A DNA stretch of 8,541 nucleotides from Spirochaetales bacterium (lineage in GTDB: Bacteria; Spirochaetota; Spirochaetia; DSM-16054; Sediminispirochaetaceae): the NCBI GenBank assembly GCA_021767325.1, contig JAASTM010000067.1:1-8541 (forward strand), written 5' to 3'. The notes below the pieces were generated by a model. It was not told the DNA's origin. It saw nothing but the letters and a program-made list of their open reading frames with translations, and did no database searches. Within the stretch, counting starts at the first letter, position 1; every line of letters begins with the position of its first letter. Both the position numbers and the translations under genes were made by a program. Below, in pieces: positions 217 through 8,316 of the stretch.

Positions 217-1845
217 TCAGCCGACTACAGCGGCAATATCGCTCTCTGCATCGCTAGTGGCCTTCAAATCGAAAGTCTCAATAATCAGCTTCTTCACATT
301 CTCTGACACAAAGCCCGGCAGGGTCGGTCCGATACGCACCCCCTTAAACCCAAGGGCCAGCAGGGCCAGCAGCACGCAGACAGCCTTCTGTTCGTACCAG
401 GCCACCGCGAAGTCCACCGGCAGGTCGTTCAGATCGTCCAGCCCGAAAGCATCCTTTAGGGTCAGAGCGATCGAAGCAATGGAGTAGGAATCGTTACACT
501 GCCCGGCATCCAACACCCGGGGTATACCGCCGATATCACCCAGATCCAGCTTATTGTAGCGGTACTTGGCGCAACCGGAGGCCATTATCACCGTGTCTTT
601 CGGCAGCTTCTGCGCAAACTCAGTAAAGTATTCCCGCGATTTCATGCGGCCGTCGCAGCCGCCCATCACGACAAACTTCTTAATGGCGCCGGATTTGACT
701 GCATCAACCACCTTATCGGCCAGCTGCTCCACCTGGTGGTGGGCAAATCCGCCGACGATCTCACCCTCTTCGATCTGCTCGGGTGGATCACACTTCTTAG
801 CAAGTTCTATCAGCTGCGAGAAATCCTTCTGACTGCCGGCTTTGCGGTCTGGTATGTGCGGCACACCGGGATATCCGGCCATACCGGTGGTAAAAATACG
901 GTCCTTGTAGGCATCCCTTACCGGGGTAATACAGTTAGTGGTCATCAGGATCGGCCCGTTGAAACTGGAAAACTCACTGCCCTGCTTGTACCATGAACCG
1001 CCGTAGTTGCCGACAAAATGGTCGTACTTCTTGAACGTCGGGTAGTAGTTAGCCGGCAGCATCTCCGAGTGGGTGTACACATCCACGCCGGTGCCTTTGG
1101 TCTGCTCGAGCAGCTCGTGCATGTCCTTTAGGTCATGGCCTGAGATCAGGATACCCGGATTGTCGCGGGTGCCGATATTCACTTTGGTCATCTCCGGATG
1201 CCCGTAGGTGCCGGTATTGGCCTGGTCCAGCAGGGCCATAGTCTTGACCGCCGTGTGTCCGGTTTTCACCAGTACGCCGGCCAGGTCCTCGATAGACAAA
1301 TCCTGCATCGTGGCCACCAGCTCATCCACTACCTCAGTGTAAATCTCCTCATCCTCATAACCGAGAACTGCCGCATGCTCACCATAGGCGGCAATTCCCT
1401 TCACCCCGTACACGATAAACTCGCGCAGTGAACGCACATCTTCGTCCTTGGTCGCCTTTACGCCGGCTCGGTCGAAGGCGGCCTCGAGCTCCTGTTCGTT
1501 TTTGGCGGTGAACTTTACATACTCGGGCAGCTCTTCATCCCCGGTATACTGGTCTATCAACTTCTGCTTTCGGTCAATCGCCTCATACGTCAGCGCCTTG
1601 ATCCGCTCTACATCGAAATTCGCATTGGTGATGGTTGAAAACAGGGCCCGCAGAATGAAATTTCCCTCGTCACTAATGGACTTACCGGCCGCAGCTTTTT
1701 TCTGCGCCATATAGGCGATTCCTTTTACGGCATACACCAGGACATCCATGTGGTTTGCGGTAATGTCGTCCTTACCGCAGACGCCGCGTACGGTGCAGCC
1801 GATATTCTTAGCTGTCTCCTGACATTGATAACAAAACATACTCAT
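217..1845 (-). CDS. hcp: Hybrid cluster protein (hydroxylamine reductase / NO reductase), class I
   Basis: The 542-residue product is a full-length Hcp (prismane protein), a cytosolic Fe-S enzyme that reduces hydroxylamine in vitro and is linked in vivo to nitric oxide and nitrosative or oxidative stress. The N-terminus carries C5-x2-C8-x8-C17-x5-C23, the spacing of class I proteins from strict anaerobes, which hold a [4Fe-4S] cluster; the enterobacterial class has wider spacing. All hybrid-cluster ligands are visible: H237 (GHDL), E261 (HSEM), C305 (TTNC), C397 (GGCDGR, the persulfide position), C425 (SGCAKY), C450 (GQCND), E485 and K487 (WYEQK). Their spacing follows the Desulfovibrio enzyme almost residue for residue. 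The start ATG at 1845 has GAGAGGG six bases upstream; a second in-frame ATG two codons later (1839) has a less suitable distance. It lies 66 bp downstream of rbr on the same strand and ends before a strong hairpin. No hcr reductase gene is next to it, as is usual for class I. Confidence 0.97.
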
Positions 1846-1911: not shown

Positions 1912-2460
1912 CTATGAAAATTCCCGAAACTTTTCCTGTTTAGCCCCGCACACCGGGCATTTCTCCGGAGCAGTACCTTCTACTGTGTATCCGCACACAT
2001 CGCATACCTGCACCGCATCCAGATCGACATCTTTGCCGCTGTCGACTGCCGCTTTGGCCTTTTTGTAGAGAGCCAAATGCTCTTTCTCGGTCTGGTAGGA
2101 CCAGTTGAAGCTGCGGTAGGCGTCTTTCTCGCCCTGCATCTCAGCTACTTCCATGTAGGCCGGGTACATCTCCTCGACCTCGAAGGTCTCTCCATCGATG
2201 CCCAGCTGCAGGTTCTTGGCAGTATCACCCGGTCCGAAAGCGCCCATACTGGTAGCCAGGTACCCGGTTTCCAGGTGCTTGAGCACCCGATAGTGATCGC
2301 CGGCATGGATATACTCGGCGTACGAAACTGCAGTGAACAATCGGGCGACATTAGTGAAACCCTCTTTTTCGGCCTGCACCGCAAAATAGCGATAGCGCAT
2401 GTTAGCCATGCTCTCGCCTCCGAACGCATTTACCATGTGTTGTTCGGTCATCTGTTTCAT
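1912..2460 (-). CDS. rbr: Rubrerythrin (diiron peroxidase with C-terminal rubredoxin domain)
   Basis: The 182-residue protein has the classic two-domain layout. Residues 1-140 form a ferritin-like four-helix bundle with diiron ligands: E16 (GGESMANMRY), E49-x2-H52 (EYIH), the E91/E94/E97 cluster (GETFEVEEMYPAY) and E125-x2-H128 (EKEH). Residues 150-182 form a rubredoxin-like [Fe(SCys)4] domain with C153-x2-C156 and C168-x2-C171, ending in KFREFS. Rubrerythrins reduce hydrogen peroxide to water in the cytosol of anaerobes, taking electrons from NAD(P)H through rubredoxin-type carriers. The start is set by an ATG with a G-rich Shine-Dalgarno run (GGGGG) five bases upstream; the alternative Met4 has no better site. 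It is the first gene of a probable rbr-hcp unit, pairing peroxide defence with hydroxylamine/NO defence. A candidate PerR-like dyad lies just upstream of the RBS. Confidence 0.97.
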   Translation of the reverse strand: MKQMTEQHMVNAFGGESMANMRYRYFAVQAEKEGFTNVARLFTAVSYAEYIHAGDHYRVLKHLETGYLATSMGAFGPGDTAKNLQLGIDGETFEVEEMYPAYMEVAEMQGEKDAYRSFNWSYQTEKEHLALYKKAKAAVDSGKDVDLDAVQVCDVCGYTVEGTAPEKCPVCGAKQEKFREFS

Positions 2461-2791: not shown

Positions 2792-3265
2792 ATGCAATGT
2801 CCGCACTGCAATGTGAATAATGATAAAGTACTCGAATCACGCAGTCTCCCGGGCGGCACCTCTATTCGCCGTCGGAGGGTCTGTCTGGAGTGCGGCTACC
2901 GCTTTACCTCGTATGAGCACATAGAAGAAAAACAGCTGATGGTCAGGAAGCGCGACGGCCGGCGCGAGCCCTTCGACCGCCAAAAACTGGAACGCGGTCT
3001 ACAGACCTCGCTCGAGAAGCGGCCGGTTTCACAGCTGCTGATAGAAGAGATCGTACACTACATCGAAGACGAGGCCGCTATCCGCCAGGCCGGCACCCAT
3101 GAAATAGATTCGGCGCAGCTCGGGGAAATGGTCCTCGAACAGCTGTACAAAGTGGATAAGGTGGGTTATATCCGCTTTGCTTCGGTCTACAAGATGTTCG
3201 AAGATGTCGAGGCCTTTAAGCGCGAGTTAGATGCCATGTTTGCACAAAACGGAGGGGAACAATGA
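2792..3265 (+). CDS. nrdR: NrdR, ATP/dATP-sensing repressor of ribonucleotide reductase genes
   Basis: The 157-residue protein is a typical full-length NrdR. An N-terminal zinc ribbon, C3-P-H-C6 and C31-x2-C34, is followed by the Arg-rich stretch SIRRRRVC that contacts DNA. Residues about 49-139 form an ATP-cone (VRKRDGRREPFDRQKL ... GYIRFASVYK), which binds ATP or dATP and sets the oligomeric state and hence operator binding. The short acidic tail is normal. The start ATG has AAGGA eight bases upstream. Two NrdR boxes lie immediately before it, so the repressor controls itself and the reductase behind it. Its TGA overlaps the nrdD ATG by four bases (ATGA), indicating translational coupling. 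Regulator and target in one autoregulated operon is a known arrangement. Confidence 0.97.
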   Translation: MQCPHCNVNNDKVLESRSLPGGTSIRRRRVCLECGYRFTSYEHIEEKQLMVRKRDGRREPFDRQKLERGLQTSLEKRPVSQLLIEEIVHYIEDEAAIRQAGTHEIDSAQLGEMVLEQLYKVDKVGYIRFASVYKMFEDVEAFKRELDAMFAQNGGEQ

Positions 3266-5817
3266 AAGTCGAACTGAAGAACGGAAGCTGGGAGGTCCTC
3301 GTCGGCGACGAGACGCAGGATTCAGCCGCCGGGGCCGGAGAAACAGCCCGGGCAGCCGAACCGGTAGTGCGGCGCATTATCAAGCGCGACGGCTCGGTTG
3401 AACCCTACCGCCGCAGCCGCATTGCCGGGGCAATCGCCAAAGCGGTTACAGCTGTCAAGCAGGCCGAAGATCCGCAGCTGGTCGAAGCGCTTACCGACCA
3501 GGTAGAGGACAAGCTGCGGGAGTTCATGCAGCAGCGCCACCCCAACTCCGTGCCGGCCATCGAGGAGATCCAGGATCTGGTGGAAACCGTACTGATCGAA
3601 TCGCGGGAGGTCGCTGTAGCCAAGGCGTATATCCTCTACCGGGCCCGCCGCGAGTCGATCCGTGACACCCGCAAACTGATGCTCGATATCAACACAACTA
3701 TGGACGGCTACCTTTCACAGTCGGATTGGAGGGTCAACGAGAATGCGAACGTCAATTTCTCACTGGGAGGATTGATCCTGCACAACTCCGGCACTATTAC
3801 CGCCAATTACTGGCTCAAGAACATTTACACCCCCGAAATCGCCGAAGCCCACCGCAGCGCCGCCTTTCACATCCACGATCTGTCGATGTTCAGCGGCTAC
3901 TGCGCCGGCTGGTCGCTGCGTCAGCTTATCGCCGAGGGGCTCGGCGGGGTGCCCGACAAGATCTCCTCCAAACCGGCCCGCCACCTGTCCACCCTCATTC
4001 AGCAGATCGTCAACTTTCTCGGCATCATGCAGAACGAGTGGGCCGGTGCTCAGGCCTTCTCCAGCTTCGACACCTACCTGGCCCCCTTCGTTAAAGCCGA
4101 CGGCCTCTCTTATCAGGAGGTCAAGCAGAACCTGCAGACCTTTGTTTTCGGTGTGAACACCCCCTCGCGCTGGGGCAGCCAGGCCCCCTTCACCAACATC
4201 ACTCTCGACTGGACGGTCCCCGGCGATCTGGCCGGCCGACCGGCGGTAGTGGGCGGCCGGGAGCAGGAGTTCACCTACGCCGACTGTCAAAAAGAAATGA
4301 ACCTGATCAACCGCGCCTTTATCGAGCTGATGCTCGAGGGCGATGCCGAGGGCCGCGGCTTCCAATATCCAATTCCCACTTACAACATCACCGAGGATTT
4401 CGACTGGGATTCGGAGAACGGCCAGCTGCTGTTCGAGATGACCGCCAAATACGGCACTCCTTATTTCCAGAATTTCATCAACAGCGACCTCGATCCCGGG
4501 GACGTCCGATCCATGTGCTGCCGGTTGCAGCTGGACAAGCGCGAGCTGCGCAAGCGCGGCGGCGGACTGTTCGGCTCGGATGAGTTCACCGGTTCGGTAG
4601 GTGTGGTCACCATCAATCTGCCGCGCATCGGCTATCTCGCCGATTCCAAGGTTGAGTTCTTCCGGCGACTGACCGACCTGATGGACACTGCGGCCCAGTC
4701 ACTGGTCATAAAGCGCAAGGTGATCGACCATCTGATGCAGGGCGGCCTGTTCCCCTACACCCGCCGCTATCTCGGCCATTTGAACAACCACTTCTCCACC
4801 ATCGGCATAGTGGGAATGAACGAGTGCGCCCTCAACTTTCTCGGGCAGGATATCTCCACCGAAGAGGGCCGCAGTTTTGCCGAGGAAATCCTGGACTACA
4901 TGCGCCGCCACCTCTCCGACCTGCAGGAGGATACCGGCGACCTGTTCAACCTGGAGGCCACTCCGGCCGAGAGCACCAGCTACCGCCTGGCCAAGCATGA
5001 CAAACAGCAGTACCCCGAGATCATCACAAGCGGTGACCAAGAGCCCTTCTACACCAATTCGACCCAACTGCCGGTCGACTATACCACTGACGTCTTCGAA
5101 GCACTGGACCACCAGGACCGCCTGCAGACCAAGTACACCGGCGGCACGGTATTCCACGCCTTTTTGGGTGAAGCGGTCAGCGACTGGAAGGCCTGCCGCA
5201 GCATGGTGCAGACCATCGCCCGCAACTACCACCTGCCCTACTTCACAATATCACCGACTTTCTCCATCTGCCCGGAGCACGGCTACATCGCCGGCGAGCA
5301 CTTCACCTGTCCGCACTGCGGCGGCGAGGCGGAAGTGTACACCCGCATAGTCGGTTACTACCGCTCGGTGCGCAACTGGAACCGGGGCAAGCAGGAGGAG
5401 TTCGGACTGCGCAAGCTGTTTACGGAGCCGGACGCTGCGGTCGGAGACACAGGGGGCTTCGAGAACACGGTGCAGGTTGAGGTCGAAGATTCGAAAGTAA
5501 TGGATACCTACTCCGGCGGGCAGTTGACCCTGGATTCCATCCGGGAGCCATCGCAGACCGCAGCCGCCAGCACTGGAGCTGCTTCCTACCTGCTGTTCTA
5601 CCGCAGCCAATGCCCCAACTGTCCTCCGGTCAAGGCATACATGGAAGGCGTTGCGCTGAAAGGCCGGCAGGTGAACGTCGATACGGCCGAGGGGATTGCC
5701 GAGGCAGCAGCCCACGAAATTATGGCCGCGCCGACAGTAGTGGTCTTTGATGCGGATGGCAATGAAACCGCCCGAACCTTCTCGGTGGCCGAACTGCGCG
5801 CACTATTCGAGGCGTGA
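3262..5817 (+). CDS. nrdD: Class III anaerobic ribonucleoside-triphosphate reductase with fused C-terminal glutaredoxin/NrdH-like domain
   Basis: NrdD reduces ribonucleoside triphosphates to deoxy forms without oxygen, using a glycyl radical made by NrdG. The 851-residue product has a short variable lead (1-35), an ATP-cone for allosteric control (about 36-130, RRIIKRDGSVEPYRRSRI), the ten-stranded barrel (about 135-660), a zinc site and glycyl-radical loop (C670-P-E-H673, C683-P-H-C686, R695-I-V-G698-Y-Y), a linker (about 710-772) and an extra domain at 774-851. Candidate active-site thiols are C214 (GYCAGW) and C420 (SMCCRL, at the position of the thiyl-radical Cys). The extra domain has a beta strand YLLFYRS, redox motif C784-P-N-C787, and a cis-Pro loop AAP824TVVVF followed by a beta hairpin, as in glutaredoxin, NrdH or thioredoxin folds. 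This suggests the redoxin-dependent NrdD type rather than the formate type, with the dithiol donor fused on; that mechanism is inferred. GGAGG lies six bases before the ATG, which overlaps the nrdR stop; nrdG overlaps the end. Confidence 0.96.
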   Translation: MKVELKNGSWEVLVGDETQDSAAGAGETARAAEPVVRRIIKRDGSVEPYRRSRIAGAIAKAVTAVKQAEDPQLVEALTDQVEDKLREFMQQRHPNSVPAIEEIQDLVETVLIESREVAVAKAYILYRARRESIRDTRKLMLDINTTMDGYLSQSDWRVNENANVNFSLGGLILHNSGTITANYWLKNIYTPEIAEAHRSAAFHIHDLSMFSGYCAGWSLRQLIAEGLGGVPDKISSKPARHLSTLIQQIVNFLGIMQNEWAGAQAFSSFDTYLAPFVKADGLSYQEVKQNLQTFVFGVNTPSRWGSQAPFTNITLDWTVPGDLAGRPAVVGGREQEFTYADCQKEMNLINRAFIELMLEGDAEGRGFQYPIPTYNITEDFDWDSENGQLLFEMTAKYGTPYFQNFINSDLDPGDVRSMCCRLQLDKRELRKRGGGLFGSDEFTGSVGVVTINLPRIGYLADSKVEFFRRLTDLMDTAAQSLVIKRKVIDHLMQGGLFPYTRRYLGHLNNHFSTIGIVGMNECALNFLGQDISTEEGRSFAEEILDYMRRHLSDLQEDTGDLFNLEATPAESTSYRLAKHDKQQYPEIITSGDQEPFYTNSTQLPVDYTTDVFEALDHQDRLQTKYTGGTVFHAFLGEAVSDWKACRSMVQTIARNYHLPYFTISPTFSICPEHGYIAGEHFTCPHCGGEAEVYTRIVGYYRSVRNWNRGKQEEFGLRKLFTEPDAAVGDTGGFENTVQVEVEDSKVMDTYSGGQLTLDSIREPSQTAAASTGAASYLLFYRSQCPNCPPVKAYMEGVALKGRQVNVDTAEGIAEAAAHEIMAAPTVVVFDADGNETARTFSVAELRALFEA

Positions 5818-6515
5818 TGGCGCTGACACAGGTCGGCCTGCAGAAAACCACCTTGCTGGACTTTCCGGGCGAGGTCGCGGCCACGGTGTTTACCCCTGGC
5901 TGCAACCTGCGCTGCCCCTACTGCCACAATCCGACACTGGTATCACCCCCGTATCCCGCGGACCTTATTTCACTCGAGGAGCTGGACCACTTTCTGGGCC
6001 TACGGTCCAATGTGCTAGGAGGGGTCTGCATCACCGGCGGAGAACCACTGATCCATGAAAATCTGGACCATCTCATCGACATGATCCACCGGCACGGCCT
6101 TAAAGTAAAGCTGGACACCAACGGAACCTATCCCGAACGCTTGTCCCAGGTCGAAGTGGAGTATGTCGCGATGGATTTGAAAACCGCGCCGGAGAAGTAC
6201 TACAGCCTGCTCGCCTGGCCGTCGTCCGGTCAGATAAGCACTGCCGCAAGACTCCGTGCATCCTTGAAATATCTAAAAACCGCCGGTATCCCCTATGAGA
6301 TTCGAACTACGGTGGTGCCGGGAATTGTCGGGGTGGAGGAACTGCGCGAGATGCTGCCGCTACTGCAGGGAGCCGTGCGCTATATCCTTACCCCTTTTCG
6401 CCGGGGAGAGACCCTCGACCCGGCCTATGCCGAACAGCCGGCCCCTGATGAGGACCAGCTGCAGACAATGCGCTCACTGGCCACAGAGGCCGGAATAGAC
6501 TGTGAAATCAGGTAG
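5817..6515 (+). CDS. nrdG: Anaerobic ribonucleotide reductase activase (radical SAM, NrdG)
   Basis: This radical-SAM enzyme uses a [4Fe-4S] cluster and S-adenosylmethionine to form the glycyl radical on NrdD (G698 of the preceding product). Numbered from the ATG (232 residues), C29-N-L-R-C33-P-Y-C36 is the CxxxCxxC cluster motif, preceded by GLQKTTLLDFPG and ATVFTPG. G74-G-E-P77 (CITGGEPL) is the SAM-binding GGEP motif, followed by KLDTNG and MDLKTAP strands. At about 230 residues it is longer than the E. coli type (about 154) and matches the longer NrdG2-like family. An in-frame GTG at 5814 overlaps the nrdD TGA by four bases, but the GAGG at 5809-5812 is only one base from it and four from the ATG, so ATG 5817 is preferred. 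No hairpin terminator follows; the next gene ends seven bases away on the other strand. Confidence 0.95.
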   Translation: MALTQVGLQKTTLLDFPGEVAATVFTPGCNLRCPYCHNPTLVSPPYPADLISLEELDHFLGLRSNVLGGVCITGGEPLIHENLDHLIDMIHRHGLKVKLDTNGTYPERLSQVEVEYVAMDLKTAPEKYYSLLAWPSSGQISTAARLRASLKYLKTAGIPYEIRTTVVPGIVGVEELREMLPLLQGAVRYILTPFRRGETLDPAYAEQPAPDEDQLQTMRSLATEAGIDCEIR

Positions 6516-7737: not shown

Positions 7738-8316
7738 TCAATACAATCCGATATATCCGAGGTCTACACCGGCGCTGAATTCCTGCTTTGCGGCCACCAG
7801 CGCAATACTCGTAAGTGCACTGGTATTCGGTCGTCTCAACAGGGTGAGTTCACTCTCAAAAGAGTCAAAGGGGATTCGCGCCTCAGTCCATCCGGAAGAT
7901 TCTGGCAGAGCGGCGGCAAAGTGGGCCCAAGGCAGCCGGGTCTGTCGCGTTCGCAAATGTAGATAGTAGCTGCCGCTGCGGAAGGCTCTGTACCTCACCT
8001 TTATTCCACTGTAGCGTGATGCATCGAAACTCCCGTTGCCCGGAGCAAGCGGGAGACGGACCTGAATAAATCCGCCGTTGTTATCGAGAGACACTTCACC
8101 TTCCATCCGCAGATAAACTCTCTCATCGCTGCGGAGGCGGGCCCTTATATCAGATTTTCCACCCATCACACGATCGGTAAAGCCCTGCCACTGGGTGCCC
8201 ACTAGGGAAATTCCGTCAGCATCGGCGAAATCATCGAGTACCAGTTCATCTGCCATAAGCGCCCCCGTAGAGATAAGCAGCACAGTCATAACACCTATGA
8301 TGATTTTTCTTTTCAT
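7738..8316 (-). CDS. Exported CIA30-domain protein
   Basis: The 192-residue product has a signal peptide (1-22, MKRKIIIGVMTVLL...ALMA, cleaved before DEL) and one CIA30-like domain (about 25-192). Family marks are LDDF near the mature start, W43-QGFTDRVMGGKSD (the conserved VMGG-S block), DNNGGFIQVR (79-87), SGIKVRYR, YYLHLRTRQTRLPW, W-x-EARIPFDSFE, and the final strands ALTSIALVAAK ... VDLGYIGLY. The fold is a galactose-binding-like beta sandwich related to CBM11. In mitochondria the family aids complex I assembly, but the signal peptide here argues for a role outside the cytoplasm, perhaps ligand or carbohydrate binding; this is inference. The domain looks complete at its TGA. The start is uncertain because no Shine-Dalgarno sequence precedes the ATG. 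It lies directly upstream of, and in frame with, a GGDEF remnant, so it may once have been the sensor part of a longer protein. Confidence 0.8.
   Translation of the reverse strand: MKRKIIIGVMTVLLISTGALMADELVLDDFADADGISLVGTQWQGFTDRVMGGKSDIRARLRSDERVYLRMEGEVSLDNNGGFIQVRLPLAPGNGSFDASRYSGIKVRYRAFRSGSYYLHLRTRQTRLPWAHFAAALPESSGWTEARIPFDSFESELTLLRRPNTSALTSIALVAAKQEFSAGVDLGYIGLY

Follow-up and report, generated by a model that had tools for sequence, protein, structure and literature searches.

The class III ribonucleotide reductase (RNR) encoded in the window, the 8,541-nucleotide stretch of spirochaete DNA analyzed here, carries a thioredoxin-fold redoxin domain at the C-terminus of its NrdD chain, and this tethered domain is probably the dedicated, covalently attached disulfide reductant of the enzyme. 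The window enzyme belongs, as an unexceptional case, to a group that is widespread and has been little described. Its split relatives, in which the radical-bearing end of NrdD forms a separate protein, are a larger surprise than the fusion itself.

The source of the window is an uncultured bacterium; its best genome match, L001 (91% identity), is a Spirochaetia MAG. In the nrdRDG cluster (Table 1), the stop codon of nrdR overlaps the start of nrdD (ATGA at 3262-3265) and the start of nrdG overlaps the stop of nrdD (TGATG). The whole of NrdD, redoxin included, is one open frame (3262-5817), which puts the redoxin and the RNR component in the same chain. The barrel (residues 160-720, matching positions 1-562 of the 562 in PF13597), the glycyl-radical motif, the zinc ribbon and the adjoining nrdG activase identify the enzyme as a class III NrdD; the zinc-site motif CxxxHx6CxxC is the one described for Thermotoga maritima NrdD (PMC4493059, accessible text). 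The hydroxylamine reductase and rubrerythrin genes, which point away from the nrdRDG cluster, look like stress genes of an anaerobe. Cas12f-like and other weak Pfam matches in the window were set aside as chance.

Table 1. Features of the nrdRDG cluster and its flanking genes in the window.
Feature	Position	Strand	Evidence
Hydroxylamine reductase (hybrid cluster protein) gene	217..1845	-	Family profile matches
Rubrerythrin gene	1912..2460	-	Family profile matches
nrdR, transcriptional regulator	2792..3265	+	TIGR00244, 179.6 bits, above cut-off
nrdD, 851-aa class III ribonucleotide reductase ending in a redoxin	3262..5817	+	PF13597, 1e-190; PRK08270 equivalog, 1127.8 bits, above cut-off, residues 37-721
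ATP-cone, residues 38-131	3373..3654	+	PF03477, 1.9e-22
C214, barrel strand A cysteine	3901..3903	+	Alignment to Y-C of T. maritima NrdD
Finger-loop motif M418-C419-C420-R421	4513..4524	+	Alignment to T. maritima NrdD
E565, putative proton donor (T. maritima E495)	4954..4956	+	Alignment
Zinc-ribbon ligands C670, H673, C683, C686	5269..5319	+	Alignment to T. maritima CxxxHx6CxxC site
G698, glycyl-radical site (RIVGYY)	5353..5355	+	Alignment to T. maritima NrdD
Disordered linker, residues 726-770	5437..5571	+	AlphaFold2 pLDDT <50; 13-58% identity to relatives
Redoxin domain, residues 774-851; CPNC (784-787) at 5611-5622, cis-Pro 824 at 5731-5733	5581..5814	+	Fold prediction, profile, alignment
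nrdG, radical-SAM activase	5817..6515	+	TIGR02495 (NrdG2), 171 bits, above cut-off
CIA30-family protein	7738..8316	-	PF08547, 64.7 bits

The original prediction had placed a C-terminal redoxin at exactly the position given in Table 1, and structure prediction bore this out. Residues 774-851 predicted alone adopt a thioredoxin fold (pLDDT 97), with the CxxC at the start of a helix and a cis-Pro loop, as in dithiol redoxins of this fold; in the AlphaFold2 model of the full-length chain the same residues are ordered and residues 726-770 are disordered, in agreement with the predicted attachment through a flexible linker. All 59 redoxin domains in the alignment have both cysteines of the CxxC and the cis-Pro. 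The glutaredoxin/NrdH-like label initially given to the domain proved too specific, since structure and profile comparisons place it nearest to thioredoxins and protein disulfide oxidoreductases; the domain profile reaches 1e-6 against NrdH (1h75), and other matches are far better. The window domain misses the PF00462 glutaredoxin threshold (18.8 versus 22.9 bits) and was not filed as a glutaredoxin, while 53 of the 59 members of the domain alignment match that family at E ≤ 0.01. Because their scores lie under the Pfam cut-offs, the domains of the window group are missed by Pfam annotation. The nearest free-standing relatives listed for the domain were for the most part short ORFs. Many of these sit on short contigs, several bear the name NrdD or partial NrdD, and they point to no particular origin of the domain.

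Comparison of the window with the nearest genome (G001, a MAG used as a stand-in for the window genome) gives dN/dS values of 0.17 (redoxin), 0.04 (NrdD core), 0.14 (nrdG) and about 0.32 (linker). In the linker the synonymous sites approach saturation. By these ratios the redoxin domain is under purifying selection. The CxxC is kept by all 106 redoxin carriers found among 169 classified loci, 87 having CPNC and the others CRNC, CPKC, CPYC, CINC, CHNC, CPAC or CPGC.

The cysteine column at C214 holds a Cys in every alignment row that reaches it (86 of 89), E565 is conserved in 89 of 89 rows, and MCCR, Glu and C214 occur together in 80 of the 80 nearest loci (the best 80 of at least 583). C419/C420 and E565 provide the third active-site cysteine and the glutamate that characterize NrdD2, the redoxin-using subtype. 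The N. bacilliformis enzyme forms a redox pair between one of its double cysteines and the strand A cysteine, which thioredoxin re-reduces, and the active-site Glu was proposed to be essential for formate-independent reduction (PMC9669993). The same study ties the finger-loop Met to formate use in the E. coli enzyme, states that MCCR enzymes with the Glu are able to use either reductant, and finds double-cysteine class III reductases to be mostly MCCR, 83% starting with Met. The assignment to the redoxin-using type holds in part: the window active site, with its extra finger-loop cysteines (C419/C420) and E565, fits re-reduction by a redoxin, yet Met418 leaves formate possible too. The partner of C214 in the predicted active-site disulfide, which the original prediction left unmentioned, is expected to be C419 or C420. 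The model does not place this cysteine pair because AlphaFold2 predicts the finger-loop region poorly (block means of 52-65 for residues 411-440). The fused redoxin is itself the strongest hint as to which reductant this MCCR enzyme uses.

The fusion is no peculiarity of this enzyme: a survey of NrdD proteins found it to be the rule among the nearest relatives. A scan of GTDB genomes with an NrdD alignment confirmed at least 583 stretches, with search patterns that bias toward close relatives; among the best 80, which were kept, 78 carry the redoxin, 70 on a single chain and eight on the small ORF of a split enzyme. The remaining two are L005, which is split and lacks the redoxin, and L001, whose locus is cut short by the end of its contig; on a second contig of that genome (L190), the NrdD tail has the redoxin and is followed by nrdG. 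A protein search with the tail alone yielded nine proteins, window included, the other eight being 13-58% identical to the window in the linker and 53-88% in the redoxin. In a core tree (90 rows, 631 columns, built by a quick method with SH-aLRT support only), all redoxin carriers except L010 form one 51-row clade (SH-aLRT 99), so that the fusion looks old and kept; the redoxin is missing inside this clade from L005 and from the radical subunit of the L157 genome, which is encoded elsewhere.

Broader sampling delimits the group. The Spirochaetota sample comprised 198 genomes, 101 of them with NrdD matches, from which, the matches being listed only in part, 89 loci were classified (the 29 loci L101-L129 and 60 others) as eight MGCR and 81 MCCR; the matches set aside were for the most part fragments or second copies, along with a number of near-identical genomes. 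A Bacillota set added 29 new loci, 17 MGCR and 12 MCCR. None of the 25 formate-type MGCR enzymes (8 Spirochaetota and 17 Bacillota loci) carries the redoxin, and it is likewise absent from the seven of the 12 Bacillota MCCR loci that were traced to their end. The radical motif was not matched in L195, L199, L201, L208, L211 and several archaeal loci. Since MCCR enzymes of the same motif without redoxin exist (39 adjacent-split and seven single-chain loci in Spirochaetota, and some archaeal ones), the fusion is the mark of one MCCR group and not of MCCR enzymes in general. At the redoxin-less loci searched, the domain profile detected no adjacent free redoxin gene in regions reaching at most about 2.5 kb past the gene. 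Two archaeal loci have a free redoxin-like ORF just downstream of a SECCR-type nrdD (L227:3250-3513 and L228:3185-3526), which apparently corresponds to the fused domain as a gene of its own. The spirochaete genomes G130, G135, G140, G165 and G008 each combine a single-chain NrdD of the MGCR type with a split, redoxin-bearing MCCR enzyme.

In nine of the spirochaete relatives (L002-L009 and L011) the NrdD frame stops 23-33 residues past the zinc-ribbon CxxC and a new small ORF follows, with its own start codon (eight ATG, one TTG) and a Shine-Dalgarno-like sequence upstream. The large subunits end in a charged helix-like stretch and the small subunits start with a similar one, followed by T-E-V-Y-x-RIVGY and, in eight of the nine, by linker and redoxin after the radical loop; the split would correspond to a helical hairpin cut at its tip. 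NrdD is split in 70 of the 81 sampled spirochaete MCCR loci: 64 have an adjoining small ORF, 25 with and 39 without redoxin (L151 being counted as split), and six, including L146 at a contig end, stop at the equivalent position with no small ORF found nearby. Ten others are single-chain, three of them with redoxin, and L139 runs off its contig. The single-chain MCCR enzymes L178, L183 and L188, which lack the redoxin and stand in a clade with split members, are possibly the unsplit form of a second split type; in L178 and L188 a long additional loop separates the zinc ribbon from the radical loop. At their shortest, the adjacent small frames measure 53-61 codons. If the split is real, a radical ORF is predicted elsewhere in the genomes of the unmatched loci (the six stop-only loci and L139), and one was found in seven of seven. 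In G183, G191 and G039, which count as one event because the genomes are near-identical, it is a 106-codon frame without redoxin (L248-L250) that immediately precedes an nrdG-like ORF and shares its contig with the large subunit, at a distance of 0.36-0.53 Mb.

Sequencing error was rejected as the cause of the split: stop and restart lie in different relative frames between genomes, Shine-Dalgarno-like sequences precede the small ORF at nine loci, and three of the large subunits come from contigs of about 2.8 Mb that encode the radical subunit at another place. Refusion of a split ancestor, suggested by a first tree with the window group inside the split clade, is not claimed here because a constrained tree uniting all 27 split rows of that clade scores better (log-likelihood +11.5, p-AU 0.635); the single chain may be the unsplit sister form. 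A protein search with a redoxin-bearing small subunit gave 3283 clusters at E ≤ 1e-5 among 7996 scored. The best 120 of the 3283 are 154-201 residues long and are named hypothetical protein, thioredoxin, glutaredoxin or anaerobic ribonucleoside-triphosphate reductase; those beyond the best 120 may include cut-off pieces of fused enzymes. One split-type small subunit (P0080) came from a set that bears the label of the anaerobic protist Anaeramoba ignava, where contamination or a symbiont seems likely. A separate radical piece may also exist in some Bacillota genomes, several of the candidates scoring below the cut-off, and in the archaeal L239, L240 and L242 small ORFs (72-132 aa) with a RITGYF/RVTGYF motif like that of the radical loop lie apart from nrdD and are possibly autonomous glycyl-radical proteins.

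Generation of the glycyl radical by NrdG is established for the class III family. In the mechanism that we propose, NrdG would generate this radical on G698, from which it would move on to a finger-loop cysteine. Ribonucleotide reduction would then leave C214 in a disulfide with C419 or C420, by analogy with N. bacilliformis (PMC9669993). The C784/C787 dithiol would reach the barrel by means of the disordered linker and re-reduce this disulfide, after which the domain would be recharged by thioredoxin reductase or a ferredoxin-linked reductase. The tether would thereby secure a high local concentration of one dedicated reductant at each active site. Precedent comes from a glutaredoxin fused to class I NrdB, an efficient reductant (PMC6187632, accessible text).

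The recharging step is suggested by the gene content of G001, which has two thioredoxin reductases above the family cut-off, several thioredoxins and one ferredoxin-thioredoxin reductase beta chain, together with one class I/II RNR large chain. No match was found there to PF04262 (glutamate-cysteine ligase), the sole glutathione-synthesis family searched, or to the pyruvate formate-lyase family; gene absences in this genome are weak evidence because it is a MAG. Of the recharging routes envisaged by the original prediction, thioredoxin reductase or a ferredoxin-linked enzyme is our best guess from these genes, and glutathione is less likely. A 436-residue frame in the same genome (G001:C20:6820-7980) matches both thioredoxin reductase and thioredoxin families and is an apparent fusion. 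More widely, 80 of 80 spirochaete genomes have a thioredoxin reductase-family match, 73 above the cut-off. Pyruvate formate-lyase is above the cut-off in 14 of 37 redoxin genomes (two more partial) versus 2 of 43 redoxin-less ones. A rule that redoxins accompany a lack of formate, under which redoxin genomes were expected to lack this enzyme, was dropped, the trend being the opposite.

An alternative that we judge unlikely is that the enzyme runs on formate and that the redoxin is an activator or repair domain, which would keep the active-site and finger-loop cysteines reduced for radical formation or for restoration after mild oxidation. Met418 is present, MCCR enzymes with the Glu can reportedly work with either reductant (PMC9669993), and in E. 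coli, whose enzyme uses formate, thioredoxin contributed to activation (PMC4390871, accessible text). The commoner occurrence of pyruvate formate-lyase in redoxin genomes, the split small subunits that join the redoxin directly to the radical loop, and the hydroxylamine reductase and rubrerythrin genes upstream in the window also speak for such a role. It is harder to reconcile with the absence of the domain from all 25 MGCR formate-type enzymes and of a pyruvate formate-lyase match from the nearest genome, and a 1:1 tether would suit use at each turnover better than one-off activation.

Proximity to the radical loop and to nrdG, whose codons overlap those of nrdD, could also mean that what the domain serves is not the reductase active site but NrdG or the NrdD-NrdG encounter, through docking or by supplying the cluster of the activase with electrons; the three near-identical genomes, where the small radical ORF is remote from the large subunit and immediately followed by an nrdG-like ORF, would agree with this. 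The small proteins of those genomes lack the redoxin, however, the redoxin-less L005 likewise precedes an nrdG-like ORF, and a CxxC redoxin is a two-electron carrier that does not usually feed a [4Fe-4S] cluster, all of which makes this role very improbable. Least credible to us is that the domain is a dispensable passenger. Free thioredoxin could do the job, since every genome tested has a thioredoxin reductase-family match, and the MCCR active site does not require a fused domain, as MCCR relatives without it exist and L005 lost it. The passenger reading is countered by the CxxC of 106 of 106 carriers, by the invariant Cys, Cys and cis-Pro (59 of 59) and by purifying selection on the domain. 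We thus favor the domain as the dedicated reductant. For this role we count the fold, the invariant residues, the disordered linker, the MCCR, Glu and C214 combination, the 78 carriers among the 80 nearest loci, the 0 of 25 MGCR enzymes and the old clade, as well as a redoxin dN/dS like that of nrdG, a nearest genome with thioredoxin reductases but no pyruvate formate-lyase match, and the L227/L228 ORFs; against it count the formate-linked Met of MCCR, the faster evolution of the domain than of the core, the relatives of the same motif that lack the domain, the thioredoxin reductase matches of every genome tested, the low model confidence at the finger loop, and the failure of formate supply to sort the types as expected.

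We also put forward, as a tentative idea that we lean somewhat against, that the end of NrdD (radical loop, linker and redoxin) is an exchangeable cartridge for radical and electrons. The split forms would be two-chain enzymes, apparently held together in the redoxin group by the added helices, in which an O2-damaged radical subunit could be replaced, and the window enzyme would be the single-chain form, where oxygen cleavage at G698 would shed radical site and reductant together. Split enzymes of this kind, whose glycyl radical would sit on a small partner (about 60 to 200 residues) and which are common among the Spirochaetota sampled, would lend themselves to work on radical exchange and the repair of oxygen damage. 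A large MCCR group with its own redoxin, for its part, makes the choice between formate and thioredoxin directly testable on one purified protein.

Among known redoxin-dependent systems, the NrdH of Methanosarcina barkeri is reportedly encoded in the same operon as NrdD3. This pair likewise employs a small redoxin as class III reductant (PMC9176816, accessible text); unlike the window redoxin, NrdH is a separate protein, and the NrdD3 active site is QCCR/A without the Glu (PMC9669993). The redoxin-using NrdD2 enzymes of N. bacilliformis and T. maritima share with the window enzyme the double-cysteine finger loop, the strand A Cys, the Glu, the zinc ribbon and the glycyl loop, but are SCCR enzymes with a free thioredoxin or protein factor, whereas the window enzyme is MCCR with its own redoxin (PMC9669993; PMC4493059, accessible text). 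The words glutaredoxin and redoxin are absent from PMC9669993, which analyzes RNR extensions and, in its accessible text, takes the C-terminus of class III enzymes to be a glycyl-radical domain. In the open-licence literature, outside which many subscription papers lie, we found no description of a widespread NrdD-redoxin fusion or of a split class III enzyme in cellular organisms. Glutaredoxin fusions to all RNR components have been found in RefSeq, with a single grx::nrdD named, from Lachnospiraceae bacterium TWA4, and the Grx::NrdB of Facklamia ignava, likewise a CxxC redoxin within an RNR component, was shown to be a reductant by dithiol exchange; it is N-terminal, on a class I radical subunit, glutathione-using and CPWC (PMC6187632, accessible text). 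The window redoxin is instead C-terminal to a class III glycyl-radical loop and is common among the nearest relatives, not a single case.

The split NrdD relatives recall GrcA/YfiD in that a small radical-loop protein works with a large barrel. GrcA/YfiD is the autonomous small glycyl-radical protein of pyruvate formate-lyase, a spare part beside an intact enzyme; the large subunit of split NrdD, by contrast, has no loop of its own, and some of the small subunits carry a redoxin. Class II RNRs also occur split, as NrdJab. As in NrdJab and in the split nrdD genes of phages (PMC3653736, accessible text), the RNR is spread over two or more ORFs. For individual phages, the accessible text of PMC3653736 attributes the splits to introns, inteins or homing-endonuclease insertions or leaves the break unexplained, whereas the spirochaete cut is recurrent, lies at the boundary between zinc ribbon and radical loop, extends phylum-wide and, in the redoxin group, adds a helix-like stretch on each side.
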